This document shows positions 15,890 to 46,450 of a DNA stretch of 64,000 nt, piece after piece. Location: contig RHGM01000003.1 of the NCBI GenBank assembly GCA_003724185.1, positions 62,001 through 126,000 of the forward strand, given 5' to 3'. Under the pieces are notes generated by a model that was given only the letters and a program-made list of their open reading frames with translations, searched no databases and had not been told where the DNA came from. Both the position numbers and the translations under genes were made by a program. The DNA comes from Porphyrobacter sp. IPPAS B-1204 (GTDB lineage Bacteria > Pseudomonadota > Alphaproteobacteria > Sphingomonadales > Sphingomonadaceae). Within the stretch, counting starts at the first letter, position 1; every line of letters begins with the position of its first letter.

Positions 15890-16114
15890 GGAGCCCCCTT
15901 GAACACATCGAGTGATTTGGAGCTCCAAGTAAACGGTGCGCAGGTAAGGCGAGCTTACGAGGTGCGGCCGAGGAAGGAGCTCGAGGTCTCTAGTGGTATC
16001 GAACCGTGCAGCTTACGCCAAGTCACGATGCGACGAGCAACCCTCAAATTCCCAGAATAACTCAATTTTCTCGAAAGGACTCTCCTTGCTGGCAAGCACC
16101 CTTGCGAGGCTCCA

Positions 16115-17542: not shown

Positions 17543-20494
17543 TTATAGCCCGATCTCGAATGGCTTGGTGATTGAGCGGTCGAGTTCCGGCGGTTTGCGC
17601 TCGGGAGCAGGCGCCCTCCCCTTGGCCTCGCCGGTGGCTGCCGCGTCGCGCAGAAGGTTCACGGTTTCCAGCGCCGAGCGCTTCATGCCGGGATTGTTTT
17701 CGACAGCAGCCTCAAGCTTGCCGGGATTGTCGACAAACAGGGTCAGACCATCGCGCAGCCGGGTGATGGTCACCAGGAAGGTCTGCTGATTAGCAAGATT
17801 GCGTTCCCGGCTATCCATGACTGCTATGCCGCGATCAGAGGTCAGGCCCTGCGCCATATGAGCATTAAGCGCATAGGCGAGATCGAGGCGCCTGAGCATC
17901 GGATCATTGGCGGCGAGCCGGTGCTCTGCGCCGAGCGAGGTCTTCACCGCGACACCTGTGGCATCGACCGCCACAACGCGCGCCTGATCGGCATTGAGTA
18001 GCCCGCGCTTGTGATCGGTCGCAGTCCAGCGGATCCGGTCGCCATCATGGATTTCAATTTGGCGGCGTTCGAACAGCTGCAACGGATCGCGTTCGCCTTG
18101 GGGGCGGAACTGGCCCGGACGAAAGTCAAATTGGCGCCCGCGCTCGTTCTGCAGTGTCACCCGCTCGCGCGATGGATTGGTTGCAACCACTTCATATTGG
18201 CCCTTTGCGAGGCCCTGCCCCCTCTGCCGGCGATCGACCTCAAGCAGCATGCCGGGTGCATAGCTACGCGCATAGCGCAGTTCCTCGCGGGTCATATTGA
18301 CGCGCGAGAGCACCTCGAGCTGCAATGAACCAGGCCCCAATTCGCCGTTCGCCTTGAGACCCGTTTGAACCGCTTCATTGACTTGTCCACGTAAGGCCCG
18401 GCCCGAGGCGTAGATCGATGTCACCTCGCGCTCTGCCGGAGACAGCGAGAGCCATGCCGCCGCAGCGTCCACCGCGGAATTCTCGCCAGCAGCAACAACG
18501 TCGTCTCCCAAATGGGCGAGCGCCTCGCTGATCTGGCCGCCTTGGGCCGCGCGTTGGGCATTGCGCAGCGCATCGTCTCGCGCGCGCAGATTGGTGTTCA
18601 TCACCGCGGTTTCGATGCCAGCTTGCTGCATGACATCGAAGGGCTTGCCTGCATCGACCGACCCCAACTGCTTGGTGTCGCCAATGCTGGCAAAGCGATC
18701 GAGTTGAAGAAGGTTGGCAAGACGAACCAGCTTCTCCTTGTCGGCGTTCCCGACCATCGATGCCTCATCGAGAAGCACGACGGTCCCGCGCAGCTCTGCC
18801 CGCGCTTCAGCGAGACGTGCACCACCCTCGCCTTTCAGGAGGTCCTGATGTTGTCTGAGGAAGCGGGCGACCGTCATCGAGGGAATGCCGGTTTCGCGCT
18901 CGAGCATCTGTACCAGGGTATTCTGCACGGCGAGACCCAGCACGGCCTTACCCTCCTCGCGCAAAATGTCAGCCACGGGCTTCAGAACCGTGCTTTTGCC
19001 AGCACCGGCAACGCCCTGGATCGCAACAATGCGGTTGTTGGAGCCGAGCAGCAGACGCCCTGCCCCCTCCTGCCCTGGGTTCAATGTCAGGCCGTATTTG
19101 AGCTGCGAAAGCGCCTGCAGTCGGCTCCCGGCAATATCGGCCGGAACGATGGCGGGCGCAGCGCCCCTACCCGCATCGACGCCGGCAATGATGCGCTGCT
19201 CAAGGCCGATCGCATCGCGGGTGGTGAGCAGTTCGCGGTCCGCGCCCTTGCCCTTCTCGAGGTATCCCTGGCGGATAAGTTGGTTGACCCGCCGCTCGAT
19301 ATTGGCAAAGGCCGTGGGCAGTGCGAAGCTGAGCGCAGTTCGATAGATCTCGGCCTTAGTGAAGGCTGCCTCGCGTTCACCCAGATGGCGGATCGCCGAG
19401 GCGACCACATGGATGGCGGCGACCTCTTCGGCGCTGCGGTGACCGATCCGCGAGGGTATCAACGGATCGTCCTTCACAAGGCCGAGGCGCTCGGCAAAGG
19501 CGTAGGCAAGATCTCGCCCCTGCTCGACCACTTTGCGAACCGATGACCCCAGTCCGCTGACATTGCCGAGGTCCTGCGCGCTGCGCGCATTGGCTCTTCC
19601 AATGACCTTCGCCGGATCGAAGCCGAGCTTTTCCGCGGTATCCTTCCACTGCTGTGTGAGGGCAGCGCGGTCCTCGATCCCCTCCTTCTTCGCCCGGGTC
19701 ATGAGGTTCGCGGCATTGCGAGCGGCAAGCCCCGTCCCTTCCATTTTCGCAAGCTGCCCGAGGATTTCAGCGCGGCGCGAACTAAAAGCATCGCGCACCG
19801 CCTTGGGCACGCCGACCGCCTCGAAATTGCCATGCTTCCCGAACTCTCCGACCTCGTAGCCTAGTTTCTCCACGCCGAGCCGGAAGCGTGCCATGGTCAT
19901 GGCGTTGAGGAGAGTGTTGTGCTCCCAGAGCTTGTCATTGCGCAAAGCCCGCCACTTGCCGTCCGGGCCTTTGGTGACATTGGCGATGACCGCATGGAAA
20001 TGCGCATTGGGTTCCTGATTGCGGTTGGTATCGTGCTGGAACAGGGCAACCACAAGGTTGCCGGTTGCGACAACCCGCTCCTTGCCGCGCACATCCATCC
20101 GGGTCTCGGCGAGGTTCTTTTCAGCCCAGGCGAGCGTCTCGCGGACCGCGGCGCCGTAAGCATCGAGGATCCGCGTGTCGCCGCCAACCAGGGCGAGGAG
20201 CGACCAGCTTTTCGGCATGGAAAAGGTGAGATCGGTGCCTGCTCGGTGAACCCGATTATCGCTGCCCACCCGGCCCCCGTCAGGCAGAAATCCCTTCAGG
20301 ACTTCTTCGAAGGTCTTGGCATCGACCGTGCCCGATAGTCCGAGCTCTTCGGCGCCCTTGCCGAACCACGCCCCGGACCGATCGGCATCGGCCCGGGTGT
20401 AGTAATTGTCGGCAGCAAAATAGTTGGCTGCGCCGCCGGCCGTGCGAACGTTGGCTACAGAAAGCACGGGGCTACCTCCGGCCAAGCGGCGCAA
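17543..20494 (-). CDS. MobF-family conjugative relaxase (TrwC-like)
   Basis: A 983-residue relaxase-helicase that nicks the element at oriT and unwinds the transferred strand. The N-terminus has the tyrosine cluster ADNYYTRADADRSG expected of TrwC-type transesterases. The three-histidine metal site is seen in the motif NAHFHAVIANV near residue 165. The second half is an RecD/TraI-like helicase with Walker A GVAGAGKSTVL near residue 500 and Walker B VVLLDEASMV. The length matches TrwC of R388 (966 residues). It lies 10 bases downstream of the coupling-protein gene and so is the last gene of a three-gene relaxosome operon. Confidence 0.93.
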   Translation of the reverse strand: MRRLAGGSPVLSVANVRTAGGAANYFAADNYYTRADADRSGAWFGKGAEELGLSGTVDAKTFEEVLKGFLPDGGRVGSDNRVHRAGTDLTFSMPKSWSLLALVGGDTRILDAYGAAVRETLAWAEKNLAETRMDVRGKERVVATGNLVVALFQHDTNRNQEPNAHFHAVIANVTKGPDGKWRALRNDKLWEHNTLLNAMTMARFRLGVEKLGYEVGEFGKHGNFEAVGVPKAVRDAFSSRRAEILGQLAKMEGTGLAARNAANLMTRAKKEGIEDRAALTQQWKDTAEKLGFDPAKVIGRANARSAQDLGNVSGLGSSVRKVVEQGRDLAYAFAERLGLVKDDPLIPSRIGHRSAEEVAAIHVVASAIRHLGEREAAFTKAEIYRTALSFALPTAFANIERRVNQLIRQGYLEKGKGADRELLTTRDAIGLEQRIIAGVDAGRGAAPAIVPADIAGSRLQALSQLKYGLTLNPGQEGAGRLLLGSNNRIVAIQGVAGAGKSTVLKPVADILREEGKAVLGLAVQNTLVQMLERETGIPSMTVARFLRQHQDLLKGEGGARLAEARAELRGTVVLLDEASMVGNADKEKLVRLANLLQLDRFASIGDTKQLGSVDAGKPFDVMQQAGIETAVMNTNLRARDDALRNAQRAAQGGQISEALAHLGDDVVAAGENSAVDAAAAWLSLSPAEREVTSIYASGRALRGQVNEAVQTGLKANGELGPGSLQLEVLSRVNMTREELRYARSYAPGMLLEVDRRQRGQGLAKGQYEVVATNPSRERVTLQNERGRQFDFRPGQFRPQGERDPLQLFERRQIEIHDGDRIRWTATDHKRGLLNADQARVVAVDATGVAVKTSLGAEHRLAANDPMLRRLDLAYALNAHMAQGLTSDRGIAVMDSRERNLANQQTFLVTITRLRDGLTLFVDNPGKLEAAVENNPGMKRSALETVNLLRDAAATGEAKGRAPAPERKPPELDRSITKPFEIGL

Positions 20495-27979: not shown

Positions 27980-28921
27980 TCAGGCCGCAAGCGCAGCGTC
28001 GTCTGACGCGTCGCCAAATTGCTCGGGAATGATCTTCCCGCCGAGCTTCAGCAGCAGGCTCGAAGCTTCCTCGGCCTTGGCGGCAGCGGTCAGGATCGCG
28101 CGTTCATCGCCTTTCAGTAGCCTGAGCCAATGTTCGATATAGCTCGCGTGGTTGTCGAGATGGGTGACCGGCAGCCCCAGCTCGGCGCCCAGCATGGCGC
28201 TGGAGAGTTCGGCGACCAGTTCCTCGGCGGCATAGGCAGCCGTACCGAAACGGTTCTTGAGATCACGTCCCAGACGGCTGGCATGGCCGGTCCAGTGCGA
28301 CAGTTCGTGGGCAAGTGTGGCGTAATAGTGATCGAAACCATTGAACAGGCTCGCCGGCGGCATCGTGACGCGATCCGCAGTCGGCTCGTAATATGCCTCG
28401 CAACCCTGATGGCGCAGGTTGACGGGGATGGCGGCGAAGAAGGCGTCGAGCTCGGCCTCGCGCCCTTCCGGCTCGACCAGTTCCAGCGTTGCGGCCGGAT
28501 GGAAGCGCTCGGGGAGACCTTCCACCTGATCGGCGTTGAAGACCGGATAGGCCTTGAGCACTCTGCGCGCTTCGTCGGTCTTTTCGCCGGTATCGGGCGC
28601 TTCAACCTCCTTGGTGTAGCTCTTGTAGAAGATTGCAATGGTCGACTTCTCGCCCTTGCGGACCTGCGCGCCGAGCGATTTTGCCTGATTGTAGGTCATC
28701 CAGAACGGCGAGGCGTAGCCGCACATGTCGGCGACCATCCACAACCAAAATACGTTCATTCCGCGGTACGGAATCCCGCAGGCCCGCAAGGGCCGGGAGA
28801 CCGGGACACCGCGCCATGGCTTGATCCACGGCTTCGTGCCTGCTTCCAGACGGGCGATGATTTCCTGGGTGATGCGGGTGGCGGGCGACAAGCCGCCGCC
28901 CTGCCCCTTGCGATAGGCCAT
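27980..28921 (-). CDS. ardC: ArdC-like antirestriction protein
   Basis: A 313-residue protein. The N-terminal half is the ssDNA-binding ArdC domain (ITQEIIARLEAGTKPWIKPW, then GIPYRGMNVFWLW and MTYNQAKSLGAQVRKGEK). The C-terminal half is a zincin-like metallopeptidase domain with the HELSHWTGH motif. ArdC proteins on conjugative plasmids protect single-stranded incoming DNA from restriction in the new host. AGGAG precedes the ATG. It sits downstream of parB, separated by a terminator, and leads a two-gene operon. Confidence 0.88.
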   Translation of the reverse strand: MAYRKGQGGGLSPATRITQEIIARLEAGTKPWIKPWRGVPVSRPLRACGIPYRGMNVFWLWMVADMCGYASPFWMTYNQAKSLGAQVRKGEKSTIAIFYKSYTKEVEAPDTGEKTDEARRVLKAYPVFNADQVEGLPERFHPAATLELVEPEGREAELDAFFAAIPVNLRHQGCEAYYEPTADRVTMPPASLFNGFDHYYATLAHELSHWTGHASRLGRDLKNRFGTAAYAAEELVAELSSAMLGAELGLPVTHLDNHASYIEHWLRLLKGDERAILTAAAKAEEASSLLLKLGGKIIPEQFGDASDDAALAA

Positions 28922-29088: not shown

Positions 29089-31077
29089 TCAGGCGGCCAG
29101 CTCGCGGGGAGACTGATGTTCGTCGTCACCGCCCTGCTCCGCTCCAGGAGGGTCGATCTCAGCTTCGCCAGCATCCGGCGCAGCGGAGGCGAAGCGCATG
29201 ACCTCAGGCAGCCAGGCCAAGGCTTTCTCGCGAACCTCGACCTCGGTGATGTAGGTACCAGCAAAGACGCGTTCAGCGCTCATCGCGAGGTCGCCCTTTT
29301 TGACCGCGGCAAAGCGGGAGGAGAGCTCGAGACCGCCGACATCTGTCAGCGCATTGAGGATAACCTGCTTCGACACCCGGTCGAAGTAGTTGGCCGCCGT
29401 TGGCCGCCACCACTGCGCCATGTCTATACCGATCAGGCTGCCGAGGTGATCCTGAAACGGCAGCTGGCGCTCGCCGGACATATTGAGGCTCGCCTCGAGC
29501 GACCGGGCCACGACATAACCCAGCCAGGCCGCGCGGCTGTCATCGGGCAGCGCCCGAAACAGGTCGAAGCGGGACATTGCATCCTCACCGCCGCGCCAGC
29601 GTTCGTCGAGACCGGACCTGAGCTCGGCAAGCGCGCTGCTTGCAGGTGCATCTTTGGCTTCGAATCCGATGATCGGGCCTGCCGGAACAGGCGCGCGCAG
29701 CGTGGTCGAAGGGCGTGCCCGCCAGTCGTGGGTATCGGCATCAGCAAGCGTGAAGACCATGATGTCGAGCGCGAGCCCGGGGTCGGATGCTATGTGCAAT
29801 GCCAGAACATCGCGGCGCTGCATGGCAAGCTCGTCGACCAGGCGCTTGGACAAAGTGGTCCGGCGCTTGTCCGACCCTTCACCGCCGGGAACAAGTTCGA
29901 TCCCGTTTTCAGCTTCGGCGGGATCGGCCTGACGCTCGCCGTAGAACACCGGCTGGAGAACCGGCGTACCATCGCGCGAGAGCACCAGCACCATTCCTGC
30001 CTCGGCCTTGAGCTCGGGCGCGATGACGGGCGGTCGGGCGCGGATTTCCTGGCATTCACGTTCGATCGCTTCAATGGCCGCTTCGGCCGCCGTCACGGCT
30101 TCCTCGGCACTGTCCTCATCCTCGAGGATCGCCGCATGCGCGTCATAGGAAGCATCGAGCTCGTCGAGCCTCGCCACCTCGGCCTCGGACAAAGGCGCCG
30201 GTTCGGCGGGAAGCCGGACGAGCCCTTCGACCAGATCGTGGCTGGCATAGGGATCGAGCGTCGGCTTGACCCAGGCAAGACCCTGCTCGGCGGCGAGAAC
30301 TTTGGACTGCTCCTCCATCTTTGCCACCGCGAGGCTTTCGAGCAGCGCGACATCAACCCAGGACTCGCTGTCGTTGTCATCGAACAGTTCGCGCTCGATC
30401 CGGCCGCCCGCGGCAATGTAGGCGTCGCGACCAACGAGACGGGCGCGCGGATCGCTGCCCCGTACTGTCCCGGACAGGACCATACGCCGGACACTATCGG
30501 GGTTGGGCGCATAGTAGCCCGAGGACACCTGCTCGAACACGCGGGTCTGGATGTCCCGATCCGAGGTAGCGCCGAAGGCTTTCGCAATATCGAGGGTGAT
30601 CTCTCCGGCGGCGAGCGCCTCGAACACGACGGGCGCAAGCGTCGCAAGACGCAGCCGGCCCTCGACGAAGCGGACGGTCAGACCGAAGCGGCGGGCAACA
30701 TCTTCGACGGTCGCACCTCCGGACACGAGCGCAGCGAAGGCCTGGGCTTCGTCGGCAGGGTTCATGGCGAGGCGATGGAAGTTCTCCGCAAGGCTGGTCT
30801 CGACGGCGGCTTCCGCGCTGTCCTCGAGCACGAGGCACGTGACCTCTTGATCACGGGCGAGGAGCTTTTCTTCGGCGAGCGCGAGCATCGCGCGACGGCG
30901 GCGTTCGCCGGCTTCGACCTCGAACTTGCCCTTCGCGGCGGGCCGGACGATGAGGTTCTGCAGCAGGCCGCGGGCTGCAATGCTGGCCTTCAGCTCAGCA
31001 TCTGCTGCCGGATCGCTGTGACGGCGGACATTGCGGGGCGACTGAACGAGCTTGTTCAACGGGATCGACTTGATCAT
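29089..31077 (-). CDS. ParB/Spo0J-family partition-like protein
   Basis: The start is ATG 31077 (MIKSIPLNKLVQSPRNVRRH) with AGGAG upstream, giving 662 residues. The N-terminal ParB domain has SIAARGLLQNLIVRP and the CTP-binding motif GERRRRA, followed by a helix-turn-helix (VEDVARRFGLTVRFVEGRL). The remaining 400 residues are an acidic helical extension, about twice the size of chromosomal ParB. No parA is beside it, so it may regulate or organise DNA rather than partition it. Such long ParB-like proteins accompany the strawberry-notch and ArdC genes on many alphaproteobacterial elements. Confidence 0.85.
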   Translation of the reverse strand: MIKSIPLNKLVQSPRNVRRHSDPAADAELKASIAARGLLQNLIVRPAAKGKFEVEAGERRRRAMLALAEEKLLARDQEVTCLVLEDSAEAAVETSLAENFHRLAMNPADEAQAFAALVSGGATVEDVARRFGLTVRFVEGRLRLATLAPVVFEALAAGEITLDIAKAFGATSDRDIQTRVFEQVSSGYYAPNPDSVRRMVLSGTVRGSDPRARLVGRDAYIAAGGRIERELFDDNDSESWVDVALLESLAVAKMEEQSKVLAAEQGLAWVKPTLDPYASHDLVEGLVRLPAEPAPLSEAEVARLDELDASYDAHAAILEDEDSAEEAVTAAEAAIEAIERECQEIRARPPVIAPELKAEAGMVLVLSRDGTPVLQPVFYGERQADPAEAENGIELVPGGEGSDKRRTTLSKRLVDELAMQRRDVLALHIASDPGLALDIMVFTLADADTHDWRARPSTTLRAPVPAGPIIGFEAKDAPASSALAELRSGLDERWRGGEDAMSRFDLFRALPDDSRAAWLGYVVARSLEASLNMSGERQLPFQDHLGSLIGIDMAQWWRPTAANYFDRVSKQVILNALTDVGGLELSSRFAAVKKGDLAMSAERVFAGTYITEVEVREKALAWLPEVMRFASAAPDAGEAEIDPPGAEQGGDDEHQSPRELAA

Positions 31078-31487
31078 GGGATACACTCCTGATTTTGAGC
31101 CCGGCACGCCGACTATCGACGCCCAAATGGCTCAATCAGGGCAAAGGCCACTCCCCTCTTGGCCGATTGCTGTGAGTTTCGCAGCCCGGTCGTCAATCAA
31201 GGATGACGATTGTTGGGACAAAACTGCCATTCCGGCGGGACGCGTCGAACGGCAGCTTTCGCCAAAAACCGTCAATTTGTGTTTCCTTCGCGGCGCCCGC
31301 ATCCCTGAGTTTTGTTGGAAGGCTGGTTTGGGCTTTCCACTTGAAGACAGCACTCAATCACTCGATTGGGATCATTGATGCCATAGCGCAGAGCCGGTTG
31401 GCGCCATGTCGAACCCATTTTCTCTGGGCGTTAATAATTGCCAGACTTGAGACCGAACCCAGACCCCTTGGCCGCCGATTGGGAAGG
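31078..31487. other. 410-base intergenic region
   Basis: It holds the parB leader and the 3' flank of the next gene. No gene with a ribosome site is seen. Composition changes here from GC-rich element backbone to the more AT-rich cargo patch, so this may be one edge of an insertion. Confidence 0.4.
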
Positions 31488-31901
31488 TCATTTTCTGAGG
31501 TTGCAGTAGGCATAGGTGCCGCCAGCACCGACTGCGACAATCGTGCCGCCGATGATCACTGCTGGAGCGCTTGCAATGCCAAGTGCTACAGCGCCCATGC
31601 TGCCCAGTGTGCCTGCAATGTAACCGGTGCCTCCTGCACCGACTGATGTCAGGATAACTGCCCCGCTTGAATGCGCGACGGCAGCAAAACCCGCAGCATT
31701 AGCTGCTGCTCCGGCGGTTGCCGCAGTTGTGGCTGCGCCAGCGACCAGAGCAGTTTTCGATTTGGTCAAATGCTTGCAAACACCTTTGGGTTGCGACTTC
31801 GCCTCATTAACAACCGTCTGCGTTCCCGCCAAAGCAGGTGTTGCCGCAAATGGTGCGGCGATTGCCAGTGCCAACGCGATCATTTTCGTTGCCGATTTCA
31901 T
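31488..31901 (-). CDS. exported glycine/alanine-rich (glycine-zipper-like) small protein
   Basis: A 137-residue protein with a clear signal peptide (MKSATKMIALALAIAAPFAATPALA, cleavage after AxA) and AAGGAG before the ATG. The mature part has a short charged stretch and then about 80 residues of Gly/Ala-rich hydrophobic sequence (GAGGTGYIAGTLGSMGAVAL, VIIGGTIVAVGAGG) like glycine-zipper membrane helices. It probably inserts in a membrane. It is divergent from the CARF gene and starts the lower-GC cargo region. Function unknown. Confidence 0.65.
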   Translation of the reverse strand: MKSATKMIALALAIAAPFAATPALAGTQTVVNEAKSQPKGVCKHLTKSKTALVAGAATTAATAGAAANAAGFAAVAHSSGAVILTSVGAGGTGYIAGTLGSMGAVALGIASAPAVIIGGTIVAVGAGGTYAYCNLRK

Positions 31902-32083
31902 TGACTTTCTCCTTCAAATCCCGCCGGACCATCCGACAAACAGAGACATAGGCGCCAACAGGCCGTCAGAGTTCAGGCGCAGATTTGCGCCTTGCTCGCC
32001 TCGACCGCGGGAAAGCTTGCCAAACACTCAAATTGTGGTGCAAAAACAGAAATGAAGAACATTCATCTGGGAGAGGCGCAACA

Positions 32084-33307
32084 ATGCCAACCCGCAACCT
32101 TCCTTCCGGTGAGAAGGTCTTGCTCTTAACGTTGGGATCAACTCCCCAGGTTGTTACCGAAACGATTTATGCCCTAGCAAAGGGCGAGCCTGCGTGGATC
32201 CCAGATCGCATTATTTTGGCAACCACTGACTATGGGCAAAGGCTCTTCAATGAAGGCCGGCCGGCAGGCGACCGAAACCCCATCGCCCCGCTTTTGGGTT
32301 CTGACGGAATGCTTGCGCGGATGATAGCTGCTTGCAATTTTCCCATTTCACTTGACCAGGTCGAGGTGGTCGTGCCGCGCTGCCAAAACGGCGTCCCAAT
32401 CATCGATATTCGCGATGCTGAGGAGACCCTGGCTTTTGCCGAGGCACTCCTCGCGATCGTATCTGAAGTCACTTCAGATCCCGCCAGTCAATTGCATGTC
32501 TCGCTGGCTGGAGGCCGCAAGACAATGAGCTTTGTTGCTGGCCAAGTCTTATCAATCCTGGGGCGCCAGCATGATCACCTGTCTCACGTGCTGATCGAGC
32601 CACGTGAACTGGAATGGCAAGACAGTTTCTGGTGGCCGGATGACAGTTCTGCTGGCAGCGATGGTGCAAAGATCAATTTGTGTATCGTGCCTTATTTGCG
32701 GGCGCGAGCATGGCTCGACCCCGCACAGGTTGTGCAGGTCAGTCCCGGTTATTCGAAGGCTGTGGAGATCGCTAACCAATCGTTGGGCCATGTTCCAGTG
32801 ACACTTGACCTTGTTGCAGGACACCTTGAGGTGTGCGGCGTCCAGATTGAATTGGGCGCGCAGCAATTGGCAACCTTGGCGCTGATTTTCATCGCCACCA
32901 AACGTGGTTTGCCACTCACAACCACAACGGATTGGCGGTCCGATGACCGCAAGGCTAGGGCTTTCAAATTGGGCGAAGACATTGATGGGGCCAACCAGTT
33001 GTGGGGCTTTTTCTATCATTGCTGCATCCTCGGCCAAATTTATGAGGGCGGCCCGGTGGTGCATTTTGGACCATTCGATTCAGCGCTGACGCGCTATCTT
33101 GACGATTTCTCATACAATGACCGGGTTGCATCGCCGTTGTCGCGGATGCGGCAGGAACTAAGCGAGGAATTGCCGCCAGCGTTGGCAGAAAAGATTATCA
33201 CGCCGCGTGGCCTAGCTACGCTAATCGAACCGGCGGACATTACCATTCTTGGCCCGGCAGATCTTGCAGACCACGAGATGTGGCCGATTGAGCTTGATCA
33301 CTGCTAG
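32084..33307 (+). CDS. CARF-domain protein of the CRISPR-associated ring nuclease / Csm6-like (TIGR02584, NE0113) family
   Basis: The start is ATG 32084 (MPTRNLPSGEKVLLLTLGST) after GGGAGAGG, giving 407 residues. The N-terminal half is a CARF domain with the family signatures LLTLGSTPQVVTETIYAL and HVSLAGGRKTMS. CARF domains bind cyclic oligoadenylates made by type III CRISPR complexes, and ring-nuclease members degrade them. The C-terminal half has a winged-helix-like part and no HEPN RNase motif (RxxxxH) that I can see. No cas genes and no CRISPR array occur in the window, so it is an orphan. It may blunt a host's type III CRISPR signalling during element entry, or serve as a sensor for the neighbouring genes. 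Confidence 0.82.
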   Translation: MPTRNLPSGEKVLLLTLGSTPQVVTETIYALAKGEPAWIPDRIILATTDYGQRLFNEGRPAGDRNPIAPLLGSDGMLARMIAACNFPISLDQVEVVVPRCQNGVPIIDIRDAEETLAFAEALLAIVSEVTSDPASQLHVSLAGGRKTMSFVAGQVLSILGRQHDHLSHVLIEPRELEWQDSFWWPDDSSAGSDGAKINLCIVPYLRARAWLDPAQVVQVSPGYSKAVEIANQSLGHVPVTLDLVAGHLEVCGVQIELGAQQLATLALIFIATKRGLPLTTTTDWRSDDRKARAFKLGEDIDGANQLWGFFYHCCILGQIYEGGPVVHFGPFDSALTRYLDDFSYNDRVASPLSRMRQELSEELPPALAEKIITPRGLATLIEPADITILGPADLADHEMWPIELDHC

Positions 33308-33355
33308 CAGCAAATCAGCGGCTCAATTTTTAGAGCAATTTGAACTGCAAGACGG

Positions 33356-33661
33356 CTATTGCCTTGGCCTACCCGTTTGAACTGATGGCAGATCATACCG
33401 GGTGTTGCCATTGCGATCCACGATGCGCCTCCTTCCGTTCTGATCGACTTTCACTGAGGGCAAGTCGTAGCGCGTGTTGCCATTGCGATCGACGACACGG
33501 GCTCGTCCATTTTGCTCGATCCGCACCGAAGGGAGATCATATCGCGTGTTGCCATTCTGATCGACGACACGGGCGCGCACCTCGCCTTGGCGTGATTGAG
33601 CCTCAGCCTCGGTATGGACGCCCAGCAGTCCCAAAGTAAGGATGGCAATCAGGATCTTCAT
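33356..33661 (-). CDS. secreted protein of three 24-residue tandem repeats
   Basis: A 101-residue protein with signal peptide (MKILIAILTLGLLGVHTEAEA) and GGAG before the ATG. The mature part is almost entirely three copies of R-x-R-V-V-D-x-N-G-N-T-R-Y-D-L-P-S-V plus a six-residue linker ending in QNG. Each unit looks like a beta-hairpin. It is encoded opposite to its neighbours, between the CARF gene and the large membrane protein gene. I do not recognise a family. It may bind a cell-surface or envelope component. Confidence 0.72.
   Translation of the reverse strand: MKILIAILTLGLLGVHTEAEAQSRQGEVRARVVDQNGNTRYDLPSVRIEQNGRARVVDRNGNTRYDLPSVKVDQNGRRRIVDRNGNTRYDLPSVQTGRPRQ
33395..33600. repeat. 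in-frame tandem repeat, 72-base period, three copies
   Basis: The word GTGTTGCCATT recurs at 33402, 33474 and 33546, exactly 72 bases apart. The period is 24 codons and the repeats lie wholly inside the secreted-protein gene, so they arose by in-frame duplication. Confidence 0.85.
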
Positions 33662-34067
33662 GACATTTCTCCACTCGTGACGTTATCTTCGGATCAACCT
33701 GAACCGGCACAAAATCACGTCACCCCAATGATGCGCCACCCATCATCAGACCTGCATCTCGAAAATCACAGCGATAACCTGACCCAAAAATCTACCGCGA
33801 CGATGACGTAGTTCTCTGGCCAGCAACTGCTTGCTAGCAAAGACTCAATCACATGCTGGGTTCTACTCGCTTCGCCGATAAATCGCTGGCGGCGCAAATT
33901 TGCGTCATCATCAAAGGTGCCAAATTCTGCCTAAACCCAGTCTATCCCGATGTTTCGGATGTCAGGGTCAGTTGAAGCCAGGATCGGCGATATCCGCCCT
34001 ACCAAGGGATAATCGATTTGGCGCTGGGCCGGATCTAGAAAATGGTCGACGTGGAGGGGCCGGAAGG
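33662..34067. other. 406-base intergenic region
   Basis: It contains the divergent promoter area for the repeat-protein gene and the membrane-protein gene. I see no further gene, terminator or clear operator. Confidence 0.4.
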
Positions 34068-35879
34068 ATGTCTCAGAACCCGAATCGCGGTGAAAAGACC
34101 GCAGAACGGCGTCCCTTGCAGGGGCGTTTCTGGCAATATTCCTTGTTCACATCGCTTTGGCTTGCGGGCCTGTTTTGGGTTGCTGCAGCAAGCCTCGAGA
34201 TGGGCTCCACGCACCTGTTATTTTGGTCGGCACTCCTCGCGATGCCGTTTACCCTACTGATCGCTCAGCGATCCCATGTGCGGCGCTCGGACTTTCTGCG
34301 GCACTGGCGGCAGGGTTCGTGGTGGCACAAGTTTTGGTCTGGTGCATCATTGCGACCGGCGATGGGCTGGCTGATCGCCTCATTCTTGACCTTTGGCCTG
34401 CTTGTGCACCTTGCAATTGAGCCAGCACTGCGGTGGCCGATTATCTGGGTTGCGATTCTGCTGCCACTTTCAGTTTGGTTTGCTGACAAAACGATGCGCC
34501 GCAGCCTGAAGGCGCCATGGTTCAGTTTTGCACCAGTCGGCTTTGGTGTCGCAATCGCTGCCGCGCTGGTTTTTACAGGTCATGCATTCTTTGGCGCGCA
34601 GGTTTCAGAAATACCGGCAAGCCTCGCAGCCGCTAGGGCCAAGTTTCCGTGCTACGAAGGCGACAGCGCGCTTTTGGATGTGATTTTCGAATTCACCACA
34701 CTCACCGCCGCCTTTCTAAAATATGGCTTCGCATTGGCAGAGGCGGCTTACCCGGATTGGCGATGGTCCTTGCGCGGTGGCGTGCTGTTCACTGAAATTG
34801 GGCTCCTGCTTGTTGTTGCCTGCTCGCTTTCCTCGTTTCTTTTGCCCCCTTGCGAACTGCGTCTTGGACTCAAGCCAGTCGGCGAGAACCCCAGCACACC
34901 ACAAGACGCCTCGCGTAGGCTCGTTGTCCAACAAGTTGGCCTTTTTGCAGTTGCGGGCCTTACTGGGAAATGGGTCATTGGCGGCGCCGAGACCTTTGCC
35001 GATAGACAGAAAGTGTCGCTGTTGTTGCGCTCTGGAACCATTGCGGTGGAGCAAATTGATAGCGGCTACTATGCTGCAGGCACGATAGCTGAACTCGAGC
35101 TATTCGAGAGGCGAGCCCAAGCACTTGTGAACAAAGCGGTCGATGTCGCCGACAAGGAGATTGCGGCGGCATTCAAGACAGCGCGTGGCCGCGTGGATGC
35201 CTACCTAGACTGGCATTTCAGCCTCAAAGCGGAAGCCGGTCGGATGATCGGATTCGGCACGATCGCTCAGGGTCTTCAAAGCAAGTTGGGAATAAGAGAC
35301 CTGTCTCAAAGCACTGAAGTCGCCATGGCACGCCTTGATGGTGCGACCAACGCGCTCAAGATGATCGATGATCTCATAAGCGATATTCTCAAAAGCCAAA
35401 AAATTGACAAGGATGCTCAGCGCAGCCGCCATGTCGTGAAAGCCAAGCGTGCAGAGCTTGTCCCAACTTCGCAGGCGTTCTTGGATCAAAACTCGTTCCC
35501 AGTGCGCATGGGAGTGGCTGGCACCGTCGTTGCCGCTGGCGGTCTTTCTGGCGCGCTACTGGGGAGTTACGTGGCACGCCAAGCAACAGTGCGTGGCGGA
35601 GCGGTTATCATTGGCAGTGGGCTGGGATTGGCCCTGCCGATAGTCGGAACCGCGGCCGGCTTACTTTTTGGTCTGGTAGTTGGAACTTTGGCCGATTGGG
35701 TCATGCTGAAATTTAATGAACGTGCTCAGCGCAAAAAAATGCGCCGCGATCTCTTGTCGAAGCTCAATATCGAGGAACGGCGCTTGCGTCAGGCGCTTGC
35801 CACTCTTCGCCGGAAGCCTGCTGAGCCATCCAAGCCACAGATTGAGCCTCGCTGCAAAATTCCGATCGGCAAAGCGTGA
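34068..35879 (+). CDS. large multi-pass membrane protein, unknown function
   Basis: The start is ATG 34068 (MSQNPNRGEKTAERRP) with GGAGGGG upstream, giving 603 residues; the ORF-track start at 33900 has no support. At least six membrane helices fall in the first 270 residues. A soluble helical region of about 200 residues follows, then two glycine-rich hydrophobic hairpins near the C-terminus (GTVVAAGGLSGALLGSYVA and GSGLGLALPIVGTAAGLLFGLVVG) that resemble membrane-inserting or pore-forming segments, and a basic coiled tail. I do not recognise a family. Its place between an orphan CARF gene and an RNase-like gene would fit an abortive-infection effector, but this is inference only. Confidence 0.7.
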   Translation: MSQNPNRGEKTAERRPLQGRFWQYSLFTSLWLAGLFWVAAASLEMGSTHLLFWSALLAMPFTLLIAQRSHVRRSDFLRHWRQGSWWHKFWSGASLRPAMGWLIASFLTFGLLVHLAIEPALRWPIIWVAILLPLSVWFADKTMRRSLKAPWFSFAPVGFGVAIAAALVFTGHAFFGAQVSEIPASLAAARAKFPCYEGDSALLDVIFEFTTLTAAFLKYGFALAEAAYPDWRWSLRGGVLFTEIGLLLVVACSLSSFLLPPCELRLGLKPVGENPSTPQDASRRLVVQQVGLFAVAGLTGKWVIGGAETFADRQKVSLLLRSGTIAVEQIDSGYYAAGTIAELELFERRAQALVNKAVDVADKEIAAAFKTARGRVDAYLDWHFSLKAEAGRMIGFGTIAQGLQSKLGIRDLSQSTEVAMARLDGATNALKMIDDLISDILKSQKIDKDAQRSRHVVKAKRAELVPTSQAFLDQNSFPVRMGVAGTVVAAGGLSGALLGSYVARQATVRGGAVIIGSGLGLALPIVGTAAGLLFGLVVGTLADWVMLKFNERAQRKKMRRDLLSKLNIEERRLRQALATLRRKPAEPSKPQIEPRCKIPIGKA

Positions 35880-36049
35880 CAACCCGAGCGGGCGTGTGTC
35901 AGACATTCAGCGCGCTAACCACACTACCATTGTTGTGGTGTATTCCTGACCGCCAAGGGGCTGTTCTTTTCATCCTTCCTCGCGCAACTCGCAAATAAAC
36001 TCCTCTTTCGCAAAGCTTATTCCGTTACGCAGGTAATTCAGGATTGATC

Positions 36050-37324
36050 ATGGTCAAGGTAAAATCGCAATTGGAGGAGCAGAAGCGTGCAGTTGCTTCT
36101 CTGGACGCCGAGCGGTCCAAGTTAGAGCGCCAGGTTGAGGAAATTGAGCGCGCCGTCCAAGAATATCGCTCTTTTGATCCTGACATATCTCGAGAGGAGA
36201 TGGCGCGCCTAGAGCGAGTGAACAGCGCTGTTGTCAGCAAAATGGCAACAGCAGCGAGCACTGCTCAGTCGATAAAAATGCAGCTTCAAGAGGTGAAATC
36301 GAAAACAGTTAGCCTGTTTCATCCATTCGAATATTTCAAGCCGGAACAGAAGTCTGCGAGAAAGCAGGTTGCTGAACTACAGGCAGGCCTAGAGGCTGTC
36401 TCATCCGCGCTTCGGGCACTAGCGGCCGAACGGGATGAGACGAACGCGCTTATATCGAAGCAGGCCGAACGGCTTGCCGCGTTCTCAGAATTTGATGAGT
36501 CGGACCAAATGACAGAGTTGGAGAGGATCAAATTCAACGCTGAAAAAATTTCGGACGCCATAAATTGCAAGAAGGATGTAATCGCAAAGATTGAGCGAAA
36601 ATTTGGTCCGCTTCTTAATCAACTTACCCACCTTATCGACGAAGCTACCAGTTTACGGAAGGCCATTGCGCAAGCGAAGGGTTTCGAGGCGGATTTACAC
36701 GACGCAGCGAACGGATCCGAAAGACGTCTGATCCATCAGGAGTGCGAGGAGCTTTTCGGGACTGGCAGCCCTAGCAGGGTGGCAAACGAGAAAGCAGGCA
36801 AGCTGCGTTCAGTTGAGCGGAACCTAACCAAGCTAGAGGATCGGATCGAAAGAGAGTTCGCTAAGCACGACAGAGTCGTGGAGCGGATCCTCATAGACGG
36901 AAGCAATCTCTGCTATGATAATGGTGTTTTCATAAGGTTCCACGCTCTTAGCCACCTGACCGATGAACTGGTGAAACGCTTCGAGGTGATGGTCGTTTTC
37001 GACGCCTCGATCCGGAGCCGGATGAAACTAGACGACGATCGGATCACAAGCGTGTTCGACCATCGTATCAAGGTCAAAGTTCTTGCGACAAAGCAAACAG
37101 CCGACGAATTGCTTCTGAAAATTGCAGAAGGCAAACCCGGCACCTATATTTTGAGTAACGATCGCTTCGCCGACTTCCCAGAATACGAGGTGGTAAAGGC
37201 CAATCGTATTTTGCGCTTCGAGATCGCAGATCAGAGGATCTTCGTTTCAGATCTCGACCTCGAGGTCCCGATGGCATCCGGTAATAGCCGCTTAGGACCC
37301 GCTCTTGGCGGAATTGGGACGTAG
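36050..37324 (+). CDS. coiled-coil protein with C-terminal NYN/PIN-like (Zc3h12a-type) RNase domain
   Basis: The start is ATG 36050; the ORF-track start is a TTG two codons upstream. It is 424 residues. The first 270 residues are nearly all coiled coil (KSQLEEQKRAVASLDAERSK...). From about 275 the sequence fits a NYN/PIN nuclease: RILIDGSNLCYDNG with the first acidic residue, EVMVVFDASIRSR, then KQTADELLLKIAE and TYILSNDRFADF with further acidic residues. Such domains cut RNA using a cluster of Asp. The gene has lower GC and more AT-ending codons than the backbone, a sign of transfer. A long sensor-like coiled coil joined to an RNase is a common toxin or defence-effector design. Confidence 0.75.
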   Translation: MVKVKSQLEEQKRAVASLDAERSKLERQVEEIERAVQEYRSFDPDISREEMARLERVNSAVVSKMATAASTAQSIKMQLQEVKSKTVSLFHPFEYFKPEQKSARKQVAELQAGLEAVSSALRALAAERDETNALISKQAERLAAFSEFDESDQMTELERIKFNAEKISDAINCKKDVIAKIERKFGPLLNQLTHLIDEATSLRKAIAQAKGFEADLHDAANGSERRLIHQECEELFGTGSPSRVANEKAGKLRSVERNLTKLEDRIEREFAKHDRVVERILIDGSNLCYDNGVFIRFHALSHLTDELVKRFEVMVVFDASIRSRMKLDDDRITSVFDHRIKVKVLATKQTADELLLKIAEGKPGTYILSNDRFADFPEYEVVKANRILRFEIADQRIFVSDLDLEVPMASGNSRLGPALGGIGT

Positions 37325-37527
37325 CGCCCGTTCCCTCCGGAGTTCTTATCGATCGAGGAAGAAGCAGATCGCCCGGATTCGATTTTCGGTGAGGGTAGGT
37401 TTTGCGGCGACGGTCAGCTTCGGAGCGCTCCATCGTCCGCTCCTATCAGGAGCAGACATTCTTTTTGACCAATGTAAACGACCGGCCCTGGGTCGAGAGC
37501 TGCCAATCTTCGGCACGTAATCGGCAC

Positions 37528-38259
37528 TCAGCCAATGCTCGGCAAATCTACAACTCGGAAAACAGACCCGGATCCGCTATCGCGGACAAGGTCAACGCGC
37601 TGGCCGTCCCAGTGGTAGTCGAGGTGTCTCCCCTGTAGGGAATTTGACGCGCAGTCCGGGTAGAAGAGCGCAACGCATTCCCCACCCGGATGCCGGACGC
37701 TCGGGTAGGCAACCCCATCCGATCCTGCACGCCTAAGGTGCCGCGCGAGCGCTTGAGACGCGGCATAGCTATCGGGATCGAGCGGCGAATCCGTCGCACC
37801 CGCCAGAGCTCTGAGATCATGCAGGTCTGCATCGACCGACATGATGATTTCGCGGAACTGCGATGTCCATCCCGGCGCTTCCTGCGTTCGCGCCATGAAA
37901 CGGGCATGATGGTGGATTGTCTCGAAAAGCGAGGTTTCGAACCGATCCCCGACGTAGAGAACACCGTAACTGCCATCGGTAAAGCGGCTTGGCCGGTCGG
38001 TGCTGACGTGGGTGAATGGCGCCATGAGGTAGGAGGCGCCGTTGCCGGCGACGCGCCGACCCTCTGGAACGAGGTCAAGATTGCCAATCGTCGTCATGAT
38101 GCGGGGATTGGTCTTCTGCTCTGCCGAAATCAGCAGCGGCCAGTCGGCTGGATCGGCGATGTCCTCGAACAGATCAATCGGCGGAAAGGCACTCCGGATG
38201 ATCCGAACAGCGCCCTTCCACTCAACTCTAGAAACGGGGATATCCGCCGCTTCGCTCAC
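37528..38259 (-). CDS. res: RES-domain toxin (NAD+ phosphorylase type)
   Basis: The ORF track begins far upstream inside the antitoxin gene. The true start is probably GTG 38259, overlapping the antitoxin stop in a GTGA arrangement, giving 243 residues. It fits the RES family: an early Arg-containing strand, RPSRFTDGSYGVLYVGDRFETSLFETIHHHARF with the conserved R, Y/E and E positions, and a later Ser in a YPSVRHPGG stretch. RES toxins break down NAD+ and stop growth, and are held in check by the Xre-type partner. The overlap means that toxin translation depends on antitoxin translation. Confidence 0.9.
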   Translation of the reverse strand: MSEAADIPVSRVEWKGAVRIIRSAFPPIDLFEDIADPADWPLLISAEQKTNPRIMTTIGNLDLVPEGRRVAGNGASYLMAPFTHVSTDRPSRFTDGSYGVLYVGDRFETSLFETIHHHARFMARTQEAPGWTSQFREIIMSVDADLHDLRALAGATDSPLDPDSYAASQALARHLRRAGSDGVAYPSVRHPGGECVALFYPDCASNSLQGRHLDYHWDGQRVDLVRDSGSGSVFRVVDLPSIG

Positions 38260-38669
38260 CAGCCACCGCGCTCGGCGTCGAGGTAGCGACGCACCCGCAT
38301 AATGTCGGTCAGCTCGCCTCCCAGCATCACGTCGAGCGCACTGTGTCCGCCGAACGCATCGTTGGCGGCCTTGGTCCAGGCATAGCCGCGGGTCGCCTCC
38401 GAGAAGATGATCCGAAGCGCCTTGTGAATGCCCATGAGGTTGGAAAGACGCGCACGCCCATCGCGCGATACGCGCCCAGGGCCTTCCGCCTTCCATCGCC
38501 GATAGGAGCGCACCGGCATGTCGAGCAGCGTTGCCGCCTGCTCGTCGGTCAGATCCCACTTGCCGAATAGATTGAGGACTGCCCGGAACATGGCAGCGGC
38601 CTCATCCTGGGTAATCGGATCGGGACGGAAAGCGGTTACGGCAGTATCAACGGGTTGCAGAGCCAGCAT
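38256..38669 (-). CDS. xre: Xre/MbcA/ParS-type antitoxin of RES toxin
   Basis: The start is ATG 38669 (MLALQPVDTAVTAFRPD), giving 137 residues; the ORF-track start would run through the operator and is unlikely. The middle has a helix-turn-helix (LTDEQAATLLDMPVRSYRRWKAEG). The C-terminal half is the DUF2384 toxin-binding domain (ALRIIFSEATRGYAWTKAANDAFGGHSALDVMLGGELTDIMRVRRYLD). It neutralises the RES toxin and represses its own promoter through the palindrome just upstream. The pair likely stabilises the element in its host. Confidence 0.9.
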   Translation of the reverse strand: MLALQPVDTAVTAFRPDPITQDEAAAMFRAVLNLFGKWDLTDEQAATLLDMPVRSYRRWKAEGPGRVSRDGRARLSNLMGIHKALRIIFSEATRGYAWTKAANDAFGGHSALDVMLGGELTDIMRVRRYLDAERGGW

Positions 38670-38678
38670 GGCAGTTCT

Positions 38679-38725
38679 CCATATGGCAGTATATACGCCC
38701 AATAATGCCATTTGGCAATTGGCTA
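38679..38725 (-). promoter_or_regulatory. promoter and palindromic operator of the RES-Xre module
   Basis: On the minus strand there is a -35-like TTGCCA, a 17-base spacer and a -10-like TATATA ahead of the antitoxin ATG. The perfect palindrome TGCCATTTGGCA (38706-38717) covers the -35. Further TGGCA words occur at the start region. This is the expected autoregulatory site. Confidence 0.65.
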
Positions 38726-41700
38726 TATAGGGGATGTCAGTCTGGCAATTACGCTCGCTGCGCCTTCGATCGGAACAAACAGCCGGGTCTGGTAGCGGAT
38801 GATTTCCGTGAAGCACCCTTGGGCCTTGTACCAGTCAAGGCGCGCTACGCTCCAACCGGTCAGCTCAATTCGCTGTGAGCCGTTGACCAGCCTGCGTTTG
38901 ACCATGAGCTTTTCGCGGCCCCCGAATTCCATGGCCCGGCCCGTCGCCAGAACGGTCCGCACGATCTCGTCGGCGGAGAGTGTTTGCTCGCGCTCGAGGC
39001 CCAGCGCCCGGCACAGTTCGGGCACGCAGTGGACAGGAACCTCCCGGCCGAGGAGCGAGCGGCCATCCGCCGCCGAGATACGGCTCACCCTCACGAAATC
39101 AGACGGGAGCTTGTCCCAGACGGGAAGCAGGAGGCCCGTCGCAAGATACAGACGCTCGCGCTTGTGGCTGGTCTGCGCTTCGTCGACCTCGGCTGCCCAG
39201 GCTTCGCGGAAAGCGCTGATGGCAATATCCTCCCAGCTGCTATCAGCCAACTGATCTTCGGTGATGTGACTGCGCCCCAGCGGACGCAGCAATTCGAAGC
39301 GGGTCACGCGCGTACCGTCATCGGCAAGAATGCTGCGAGCGGGCACCAGCAAGGCAACCCGCCCTGAACGGGCGTTCCGAAGCGGCTGCTGCCGCTGCCC
39401 GTTGAGACCGTGAAGCTCCTCGAGCCGCTTCAGCGTGAGCGGCTTCAGCGCCCTGGCGATTTCCAGTTCGAGCAGATGGGTGGTCGCGCCCGAGGCCGGA
39501 TCGGTGCGCAGCAGCGTGTCCGACAAGACAGTGAAGTCCTCGACCGCGATGGTCTCGAGGCCAAGATCGAGTGTCCCAGCCTGCCGGGCGGCATCGATAC
39601 GCGCCTCCACGAGCCCCATGAACTCGTCGAAGATCGCGTTCTGCAAAGCGATAGGCAGCGCCAGGATGCGATTGAGCCAGCGCTGGATCGAAGGCAGGTC
39701 ATCGACCATTGATCCATCGGGCGCTTCGATCCGGAGGCTCGTCAGCTCCTGAAAGCGCCCAAGGCTGACCGCCTCGAGCTTGCCGCTGAACAACAGGCCG
39801 AACCACCGATGGAGCGCTTCTTTGGCGTAGATGCTCTCCAAATTGTCGGCCGGATCGAAAAGGTTTTGACCGCCGGTCTGGCGCTGCCCGCGCGTCAGAG
39901 CGCCAAGGCTGTCGAGCCGCCGCGCGATCGTCGAGATGAACCGGCGTTCGCCGCGCACATCGGTGGTCACCGGTCTGAACAGCGGCGCCGACGCCTGATT
40001 GGTGCGATTGGTTCGCCCGAGCCCCTGGATTGCGGCGTCAGCCCGCCAGCCCGGCTCAAGCAGGAAGTGGACGCGGCGGGCCTGGTTCTTCGCGGCTAGA
40101 TCGGCGTGATAGCTACGCCCGGTTCCACCGGCATCGGAGAACACCAGAATGCGCTTGGTGCCGTCCATGAAGGCCAGGGTTTCAGCTATATTGGCGCGTG
40201 GCGAACGGGATTGCAGCTTCTGGCGACCATCCCGGCCGACGATAAGCCGACGCGTGCGACCAGTCACCTCTGCAACCTGGTCAACGCCGAAGCGCTCAAT
40301 GATGGCATCGAGCGCGGTAGCAATCGGCGGCAAAGCGCAGAGCTGCTCGATCATCCGGTCGCGCGCGGCGAGTGCCGATCGGGACAGTACTGGCGCGCCG
40401 AGCTCGTCGCTCATCGGCTCGGAGCGGGGATTGCCGTTTTCGTCGGTGAAGACGGCCATCAAGCGAACAGGAAAGCTCGTGGCGAGATAGTCGATCACAT
40501 ATTCCCGCGGGGACAGGTCGATCTCGAGAGCTTCGCGCTCCTCGTCAGACAGGTCGGCAAGCCTACGGTTGAGCATGGCTTCGGCGGTCGAGACCAGCTG
40601 GACGACCACAGCGTGACCATCTGCAATCGTCGTATCGATCGCGGGCAGCAGGCTGGGAAGCTTCATCGACAGAAGCAGCTGCGCAAAGAAGCGCTGCTTC
40701 GTTCCCTCGAAGATCGACAGCGCCGCCGACTTGGCACCGGAGTTGAGCGTCCCGCCGGTTTCGCTGTCGACGATCCGCGTGGCCTCCAGCGCTTCGCGCA
40801 GGTTGGCGTGGATGATCGCCCAAGCCTCGGCATAGGCATCGTAGACCGCGATCTGGTCCTCAGTCAGGCAATGCTCGAGAATCTCGTATTCGACACCCGC
40901 GAAGGAAAGTGCGCGCGCGGTGTAGAGGCCGAGCGATTTGAGATCCCGCGCGACCAGTTCCATCGCGGCGATGCCGCCGTCGCGAATGTCGGCAACGAAG
41001 GTTTCGCGATTGGCGAAGGCGGTCTCCGGACCCCAGAGCCCGAGGCGCGTGGCGTAGGCGAGATTGTTGACGTCGGACGCACCAGTTGCCGAAGCGTAGA
41101 GCACCCTTGCCCGGGGGAGGAGGTTTTGCAGGCGCACCCCGGCAATGCCTTGCTCCGATCCTTTGACCTTGCCGCGAGAGCCTTCGCCACCAGCAGCGTT
41201 GGCCATGGCATGTGCTTCGTCGAACACGATCACTCCTTCGAAATCTTCGCCGGCCCAGGCGAGTATCTGGTCAAGGCGCGTTGCGTCGTTTCGACCCGAA
41301 CGCAGGGTCGGATAGGTGACGAAGAGAATGCCGTCGCGCATTGCGATTGGTGTGCCCAGCTTCCAGGATGCCAGCGGCTGGATGTCGATCGGGAGGCCGC
41401 CAAGGGCGGCCCAGTCGCGCCGCGCGTCTTCGAGCAGCGCCTCGTTCTTCGAAATCCAGATATGGCGGCGGTCCCCGCGCACCCAGCGATCAAGAATGAC
41501 GCTCGCAACCTGGCGACCCTTCCCGGCACCTGTTCCATCCCCGAGGAAATAGCCTTGGCGGTAGGTCTGGCCTTCTGCCGAGGCCTTGAGCGAACAGCCC
41601 TTGTCCTCGGGTTCGAACCGGCCGGGTAAATCGCGCGCATGGGCGCTTGCAGCATAGATCAGGGTCTCCGCCTGAGCAGCCGACAGCAGTCCCTTGGTAA

Positions 41701-44955: not shown

Positions 44956-46167
44956 TCATTCCGGCGGCGCAGTCTTGCCTGCATCAGCTGCCACGCCATT
45001 GCAGTAGCGCCCCCACGCTTCCATCAACTTCACCCGCATGCCCGGCTGGTCCGGCGTGCCGAGATAGGTTGTGCGGCGATAGGCGGCCTGCACCGCGTCG
45101 GGCGTCTTGTGCGCCAGCGCCGCTTCGACCACGGCATCGGGGAAGCCTTCGTTGGCGGCCCAATCGGTGAACGTGGAGCGGAAGCCGTGGACGTGGTAGG
45201 GTTCGCACATATCGCGCATCACCTTGAGCAGCGTCATGTTGGACATCGCCTTGCCAGTCATGCCGGGGAAGACCACCTCGGCTCCTTCAAGGCGCATCGC
45301 ATCCGCCTTCGCGAGTACCGCCAGAGCCGCGTCCGAGAGCGGCACCATTTGCGCCCTGTTGCGTTTCATATGTTCAGCTGGGATCGTCCAGAGGCGTTGC
45401 TCCAGATCGAATTCATCCCATGTCGCAAGCCGCACCTCCTGCGAGCGAACGCCCGTGAGAATGAGAAGGTCGAGCGCCAGACGCGTGTAGGTTGGCTTGC
45501 GCCGCAAGGCGATCATGAAACCGGGTATGGCGACATAAGGCATGGCCTTGCGGTTGTCCGCCTGCTTCACCTGTCGCGGAAGGCCCCTGCCCGCCTTCAG
45601 GCTGCCGTTGCCCGATGGGGCCTCGCGCGAGCGCCAGCCCTTGGCATGGGAATAATCGAGCACGGTGCAAATCCGGTTGCGCACCTGACGGGCGGTTTCC
45701 GGGATTTCCTGCCAGATCGGCGTCAGCACGGTGATGATATCGGCGCTGGTGATGCTGCCAGTCGGCTTGTCACCCAGTTTCGGGAAGGCGTAGTTTTCCA
45801 GAGTGGCGAGCCACTGGCGCGCATAGACCGTGCTTTTCCAGCCCGCCTCGTTCTCGGAGTGATACTGGATCGCGGCTGAGCGGAACGTCACTTTGGCGGC
45901 TGCATCGTCTTTCTTCTCCGCCAGAACATCGCGCTGATCGACCTTGATCGCTCGGCGCAGTTCGGCGGCTTTGTGACGCGCGTCCGCCAGGGTCAGGAGC
46001 TTGGCGCTGCCGATTCCGATGTCCCGTCGCTTGCCATCCTGCTGGACGCGAAGATTCCAGTAAGCACCGCCGCGCTTGTCCACTTTGAGAAACAGCCCGT
46101 CCCCGTCCTGATAGGTGCCGGGATTCGCCAAGGCTGCCTTGACCGCAACTGCTGTGAGTTTGACCAT
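44956..46167 (-). CDS. int: tyrosine-type site-specific integrase (P4-like, DUF4102 arm domain)
   Basis: A 403-residue recombinase. The N-terminal arm-binding domain (NPGTYQDGDGLFLKVDKRG...WNLRVQQDGKRRDIGIG) is the DUF4102 type found in integrases that use tRNA genes. The catalytic domain shows the Arg in LTGVRSQEVR, HGFRSTFTDWA with His and Arg, and a C-terminal AHKTPDAVQAAYRRTTY with the Tyr. It integrates and, with a directionality factor not seen here, excises the element. Arm-type repeats lie directly upstream of its start, and the tRNA-Tyr target is 200 bases away. Confidence 0.95.
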   Translation of the reverse strand: MVKLTAVAVKAALANPGTYQDGDGLFLKVDKRGGAYWNLRVQQDGKRRDIGIGSAKLLTLADARHKAAELRRAIKVDQRDVLAEKKDDAAAKVTFRSAAIQYHSENEAGWKSTVYARQWLATLENYAFPKLGDKPTGSITSADIITVLTPIWQEIPETARQVRNRICTVLDYSHAKGWRSREAPSGNGSLKAGRGLPRQVKQADNRKAMPYVAIPGFMIALRRKPTYTRLALDLLILTGVRSQEVRLATWDEFDLEQRLWTIPAEHMKRNRAQMVPLSDAALAVLAKADAMRLEGAEVVFPGMTGKAMSNMTLLKVMRDMCEPYHVHGFRSTFTDWAANEGFPDAVVEAALAHKTPDAVQAAYRRTTYLGTPDQPGMRVKLMEAWGRYCNGVAADAGKTAPPE

Positions 46168-46364: not shown

Positions 46365-46450
46365 TGGTGGACAGGGCTGGATTCGAACCAGCGTACGCTT
46401 GCGCGGGCAGATTTACAGTCTGCTGCCTTTAACCACTCGGCCACCTGTCC
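46365..46450 (-). tRNA. tRNA-Tyr (anticodon GTA), integration target
   Basis: A class II tRNA of 86 bases: 5' GGACAGG pairs with CCTGTCC near the 3' end, the anticodon loop reads CTGTAAA, there is a long variable arm, and CCA is encoded. The 3' end faces the element, so the attachment core should lie in the T-arm/acceptor half. The gene is intact, restored by the element's copy of its 3' end if a duplication occurred. Confidence 0.95.

Follow-up and report, generated by a model that had tools for sequence, protein, structure and literature searches.

An orphan CARF5-type protein with a winged-helix half in the cargo hotspot of a Porphyrobacter conjugative element

In Porphyrobacter sp. IPPAS B-1204, a known kind of protein is found in an unusual setting. 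Family profiles place the product of an intact gene in Cas_NE0113/TIGR02584, within the CARF5 clade. It is encoded alone on a conjugative element (ICE) whose host genome lacks type III CRISPR genes. The region described here, called the window, is the whole 64,000-nucleotide stretch of contig RHGM01000003.1 from position 62,001 to 126,000. As judged from sequence, the protein may be a type III accessory, now orphaned, that would bind and cleave the cyclic oligoadenylate (cOA) of type III recipients, a reading that is preferred only tentatively. Regulation of genes comes close behind in likelihood. The gene and its parts, in window coordinates, are as follows.

31975..31992, gap upstream of the gene: inverted repeat AGGCGCA-GATT-TGCGCCT, a possible operator whose excess over chance is unsupported
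32070..32076, plus strand: Shine-Dalgarno-like GGAGAGG, read from the sequence, with the ATG start of the CARF gene 7 bases on
32084..33307, plus strand: orphan CARF-wHTH gene (Cas_NE0113 / TIGR02584 / CARF5), 407 aa plus stop
32084..32653, plus strand: CARF domain, about aa 1-190 (PF09623 at aa 20-180, TIGR02584 at aa 13-189)
32135..32143, plus strand: motif I, G18-S19-T20, counterpart of Sso2081 Gly9-Thr10-Ser11 (PMC10018336)
32513..32521, plus strand: motif II, G144-R145-K146, counterpart of Sso2081 Gly104-Arg105-Lys106 (PMC10018336)
32783..33238, plus strand: OmpR/PhoB-like winged-helix domain with an insertion, aa 234-385 (hhalign)

Assignment to the CARF/ring-nuclease family had been proposed in a sequence-only reading, and profile searches bear it out. 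The protein scores 84 bits against Pfam PF09623 (Cas_NE0113; cut-off 23) and 103.5 bits against NCBIfam TIGR02584 ('CRISPR-associated ring nuclease Csm6'; cut-off 80.65), and its top PADLOC model is CARF5--CARF (E 5e-54, aa 11-371). Scores above the curated cut-offs put the family match far from chance. The frame on the plus strand is intact and its N-terminus agrees with those of relatives. An alignment of 75 members shows a full-length layout common to the protein and the family, with both ring-nuclease motifs intact and all family-invariant residues kept. The two CARF signatures quoted in the sequence-only reading are exact and include positions that are invariant, or nearly so, in these homologues. 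In Crn1 (Sso2081) the triplets equivalent to motifs I and II separate cOA-degrading from non-degrading CARF domains; the GRK of motif II is identical in the ICE protein, whereas motif I reads G-T-S in Sso2081 and G-S-T here (PMC10018336). The top PDB matches of the family profile are weak (E 0.011) and fall on the ring-nuclease CARF domains of CARF5 Cad1 (PDB 9ebt, 9c67 and others), which are related and align at the same motifs I and II. Ring-nuclease activity has been demonstrated for Cad1, which cleaves cA4 (PMC12669630), and for Synechocystis SyCsm6 (PMC9676260). Cad1 has, however, an adenosine deaminase domain that the ICE protein lacks. A single-sequence PDB search returned designed ankyrin repeats as its sole matches, which were judged spurious.

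The C-terminal half, overlooked in the earlier reading, is by profile comparison an OmpR/PhoB-like winged helix that is DNA-binding-like and not a HEPN nuclease. The family C-terminus matches the OmpR-type domains of the same genome at 95.6% probability in hhalign over the whole domain, against 0.2% for the N-terminal half, at most 2.1% for 30 column shuffles and 0.1% for the reversal. The four-member Sphingomonadales subfamily alone gives a lower value of 74%. PDB matches at profile positions 228-309 are OmpR/PhoB-type winged helices, individually weak (E 0.15-1.7) but coherent. No HEPN domain was found in the protein or in the families listed for the 75 members, which makes 'Csm6' a misleading name for it.

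The host genome (3.55 Mb, 100% complete) contains no RAMP (Cas7-type), Cas10 palm domain or Cas1 anywhere, and a simple repeat scan detected no CRISPR array within the window, in agreement with the original description of the gene as an orphan without cas genes or arrays. A type III locus elsewhere in the same genome, named at the outset as an observation that would speak against the first interpretation, was sought and is absent. The genome encoding the protein therefore offers no type III CRISPR context, a point that bears on the setting and not on membership of the family by sequence. The genus is alike in this respect, with RAMPs in none of 37 genomes (the host and 36 others). The host genome also has no SMODS (CBASS) cyclase. 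Since Cas10, RAMP, Cas1 and the SMODS cyclase are all missing, a ligand must probably come from elsewhere.

The surroundings identify a conjugative element, and the ICE setting and the company of ArdC noted at the start both stand. The relevant features of the window are listed here.

17543-20494: TrwC relaxase
27980..28921, minus strand: ArdC antirestriction protein (PF08401, PF18818)
29089..31107, minus strand: parB, left border of the hotspot, conserved in sibling elements (PF02195, PF17762)
31108..37527: variable cargo hotspot of the ICE family, between parB and RES-xre
34068-35879, plus strand: membrane protein with 7 hydrophobic stretches, unknown family
36044-37324, plus strand: coiled-coil protein, unknown family
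37528..38816, minus strand: RES toxin and Xre antitoxin with overlapping frames, right border of the hotspot (PF08808, PF20432, PF09722)
44956..46167, minus strand: tyrosine integrase, beside tRNA-Tyr
46365-46450: tRNA-Tyr, integration site of the ICE

No exact attachment repeat of at least 16 bases for the far end of the ICE was found in the 60 kb leftward. The helicase family of the ICE is common in the host genus. The element has a considerable defence load, with Druantia III (DruE, DruH) and Zorya I (ZorABCD) at positions 1-15928 of the window and BREX I (BrxA, BrxB, BrxC, PglX, PglZ, BrxL) just to the left of it (L149:4634-17475). The CARF gene is on the same side of the relaxase as SSB, ArdC and ParB, and this side we take to be the leading region by analogy with R388-type elements, with oriT placed by inference. 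Leading regions of plasmids concentrate anti-defence genes (PMC11541004).

The RES-Xre border of the hotspot is kept in close sibling elements. In sibling elements the same slot contains CBASS (SMODS plus SLATT_6; genome G083, L116:11832-13773), Hachiman (HamAB; genome G051, L114:9453-13785) or an MkoB-like (Mokosh-like) gene (genome G062, contig 51, L118:440-1912). The slot thus takes defence as readily as it might counter-defence. Other sibling elements of the genus have larger non-defence cargo between parB and RES-xre, and the CARF gene is absent from all 20 sibling regions fetched. Its GC3 of 0.58 is lower than that of the backbone genes for ParB, ArdC, the relaxase and the helicase (0.72-0.77).

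Within the hotspot the CARF gene is a solo unit with opposing small ORFs on either side. One small ORF (33356-33661, minus strand) encodes a protein that begins like a signal peptide and contains repeats, each of about 20 aa, of an 'NGNTRYDLPSV' unit. The downstream genes for the membrane and coiled-coil proteins are set apart from the CARF gene by a gap of 760 bases, in which a small ORF runs the opposite way. Both of these are present in the host genome only (246 genomes searched, 0/245 relatives) and are absent from all other CARF-homologue loci. The membrane protein has no homologue in the plasmids searched. Homologues of the C-terminal half of the coiled-coil protein occur on Pseudomonas and Acinetobacter plasmids, and on two of the Pseudomonas plasmids no CARF gene is nearby. 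Neither neighbour contains a recognised effector domain; a PIN/NYN-like look of the coiled-coil protein, noticed by eye, is backed by no Pfam or PDB match. The opposing small ORFs, the gap and the lack of these neighbours at other CARF loci led to rejection of a CARF-effector operon, and the suggestion that the protein senses a signal for adjacent effectors finds no backing in gene position.

Homologues of the CARF protein occur in 2 other genomes among 150 relatives, and these two are also the only RAMP-positive genomes among the 61 relatives searched for RAMPs as well (Fisher p 0.0016 for co-occurrence, uncorrected for phylogeny). Cas10 is found in most of 50 homologue-bearing genomes. The three nearest proteins (L010-L012) are from Sphingomonadales and share 41-42% identity over aa 11-405; their genomes all give Cas10 and RAMP matches. 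L011 has a Card1-like CARF nuclease and a CRISPR array in its neighbourhood, at 2-5 kb, and L012 a Csm6-HEPN protein at 2.2 kb. A quick tree of 85 proteins, made without bootstrap, places the ICE protein together with these three (support 99). This grouping suggests that the CARF gene was recruited from such a neighbourhood, and a Sphingomonadales type III locus is probably its source. Similar-looking coiled-coil proteins of unknown family are encoded near the relatives L010 and L012 (L010:325-1881, L012:1672-2979), the L010 copy without a Pfam match. The phage and viral collections contain no homologue of the CARF protein.

Nine gammaproteobacterial homologues form a separate clade (support 100) without adjacent cas genes. 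RAMPs are absent from 7 of the 9 genomes or plasmid records, the count covering the plasmid record alone for three plasmid members, and in the other two they are on a contig that differs in length from that of the CARF gene. Weak Cas10-palm matches in Vibrio and Acinetobacter genomes were set aside as probable GGDEF cross-matches, since the RAMP search in those genomes was negative. The genes of one Vibrio locus (L041:5216-16537) run zorA-zorB-zorC-CARF-hsdR-hsdM, and 10-15 bases separate the CARF gene from its neighbours. A second Vibrio locus (L069:4562-16519) is similar, with the CARF gene beside zor and hsdR genes at wider gaps; both genomes are without RAMPs. HsdM is found upstream of the CARF gene in L055, and a DUF4145/HsdR-N-like protein downstream of it in L081. 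The Zorya and hsd neighbourhood speaks for regulation or sensing by this clade within defence islands other than CRISPR.

Members of Cas_NE0113/TIGR02584 resemble the ICE protein in sequence, length, CARF motifs and C-terminal winged-helix layout, but they are mostly found in Cas10 genomes, whereas the ICE protein is alone. AcrIII-1 (Crn2) is also borne by mobile elements, ICEs included (PMC7213978), and has the effect proposed for the ICE protein. It belongs, however, to the unrelated DUF1874 family, and only PF09623 was matched in the ICE protein in Pfam. Csa3 regulators likewise combine a CARF domain with a C-terminal winged helix, and Csa3a is reported to recognise cA4 (PMC8699464). They are nevertheless a different family, as 1 of 75 members gave a marginal Csa3_N match (E 0.16). 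Ring nucleases have already been reported on ICEs (AcrIII-1, PMC7213978) and plasmids (Crn4b, PMC12830947). In the literature searched, mostly non-subscription, there is no report of the Cas_NE0113 family as ICE cargo or beside Zorya or restriction genes.

The tentatively preferred mechanism would begin with an intact CARF5 / Cas_NE0113 type III ancillary protein that was parted from any CRISPR locus and is now carried alone in the leading-region hotspot of the conjugative element. A CARF dimer would bind the cA4 and/or cA6 that Cas10 produces in a recipient cell, and would cleave it slowly. This could lower the type III alarm during establishment of the element, in the manner of other ring nucleases on ICEs and plasmids. 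The protein would be idle in its present host because no Cas10 is there. This reading is favoured by the curated family scores, the two motifs and the Cad1 alignment, and also by the co-occurrence of homologues with RAMPs, the presence of Cas10 in most homologue genomes and the missing ligand source in the host. The leading-region-like position, the solo unit and the precedent of AcrIII-1 on ICEs speak for it too. An anti-CRISPR role, as put forward at the outset, is weakened by the genus, in which 37 genomes without type III genes offer no obvious local target, by the pro-defence systems in sibling hotspots and by the winged-helix half, which is needless for a cOA sink. The lack of phage or viral homologues also weakens the ring-nuclease reading, and motif presence alone does not prove cleavage. 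Discussion of anti-CRISPR ring nucleases has so far been mostly on phages. If the ICE protein lowers cOA, it would be a CRISPR off-switch turned cargo, aiding entry of the ICE into type III cells. Intact motifs in a genome without Cas10 or SMODS cyclase make for a clean system.

The winged helix and the gammaproteobacterial clade are better accounted for by a ligand-controlled transcription regulator, with the CARF dimer as sensor of a cyclic nucleotide and the winged helix as the DNA-binding part, on the model of CARF-wHTH Csa3 and WYL regulators. This possibility comes close behind cleavage of cOA. Its targets would be defence or transfer genes of the ICE, such as its own promoter, Zorya, BREX or the cargo. 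The hhalign match of the C-terminal domain to OmpR, far above its shuffles, is consistent with such a role, as are the position between Zorya and hsd genes in the two Vibrio loci and the Zorya I, Druantia III and BREX I systems of the ICE itself. Winged helices sometimes serve dimerisation alone, however, and the Sphingomonadales subfamily matches OmpR less well on its own. The host has no cOA source, no operator above chance was found, and the upstream sequence is no more like the Zorya promoter region than shuffles are. Regulation had been predicted for NE0113 proteins by Makarova 2014 (PMC4012209). A CARF regulator would extend the role of these domains beyond Cas10 signalling, into islands with Zorya and restriction genes. 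A broader version, in which orphan CARF5-wHTH proteins are a recurrent Cas10-independent control in mobile defence islands, is improbable; they would sense a cyclic nucleotide that is not from Cas10 or is made by a co-infecting element, and would control genes of Zorya, restriction or the ICE. On that view the ICE protein and the gammaproteobacterial clade would be two independent recruitments.

Less likely than cleavage or regulation is an idle passenger: a captured type III accessory without present function, carried by hotspot turnover and not yet decayed. The lack of type III systems in host and genus, the varying contents of sibling hotspots, with the gene in none of those fetched, and its low GC3 would all fit. 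There is also a precedent in VC1899 (Can2/DUF1887 family), likewise a CARF protein without a type III system, which, once 'cast adrift', did not keep its cA4 site (PMC7969007). In contrast to VC1899, the ICE protein has intact motifs, and it keeps a full frame and all family-invariant residues at 42% identity to its nearest relatives. Least probable of all is a part in non-CRISPR signalling defence with another cyclic nucleotide, perhaps together with the membrane and coiled-coil proteins. CBASS does occupy the same place in a sibling ICE, and both downstream genes share the strand of the CARF gene and were seen in no other of the 246 genomes searched. Against this are the absence of a SMODS cyclase from the host, the gap and opposing ORF before those genes, their absence from every CARF-homologue locus and the Pseudomonas plasmids that encode coiled-coil homologues away from any CARF gene.

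Further arrangements were noted at other loci. In Acinetobacter towneri (L080:5712-8379), whose genome gave no RAMP match, a second CARF gene (PF09651) comes after the CARF5 gene, and AAA, VWA-like, phosphatase-like and kinase-like genes are close by. Plasmids of Vibrio and Photobacterium have 'csm6' genes with no annotated cas genes in the vicinity. On a Vibrio casei plasmid (L005:7998-11768) an orphan csm6-family gene overlaps one for an ADP-ribosylglycohydrolase, and a metallophosphoesterase gene comes next.
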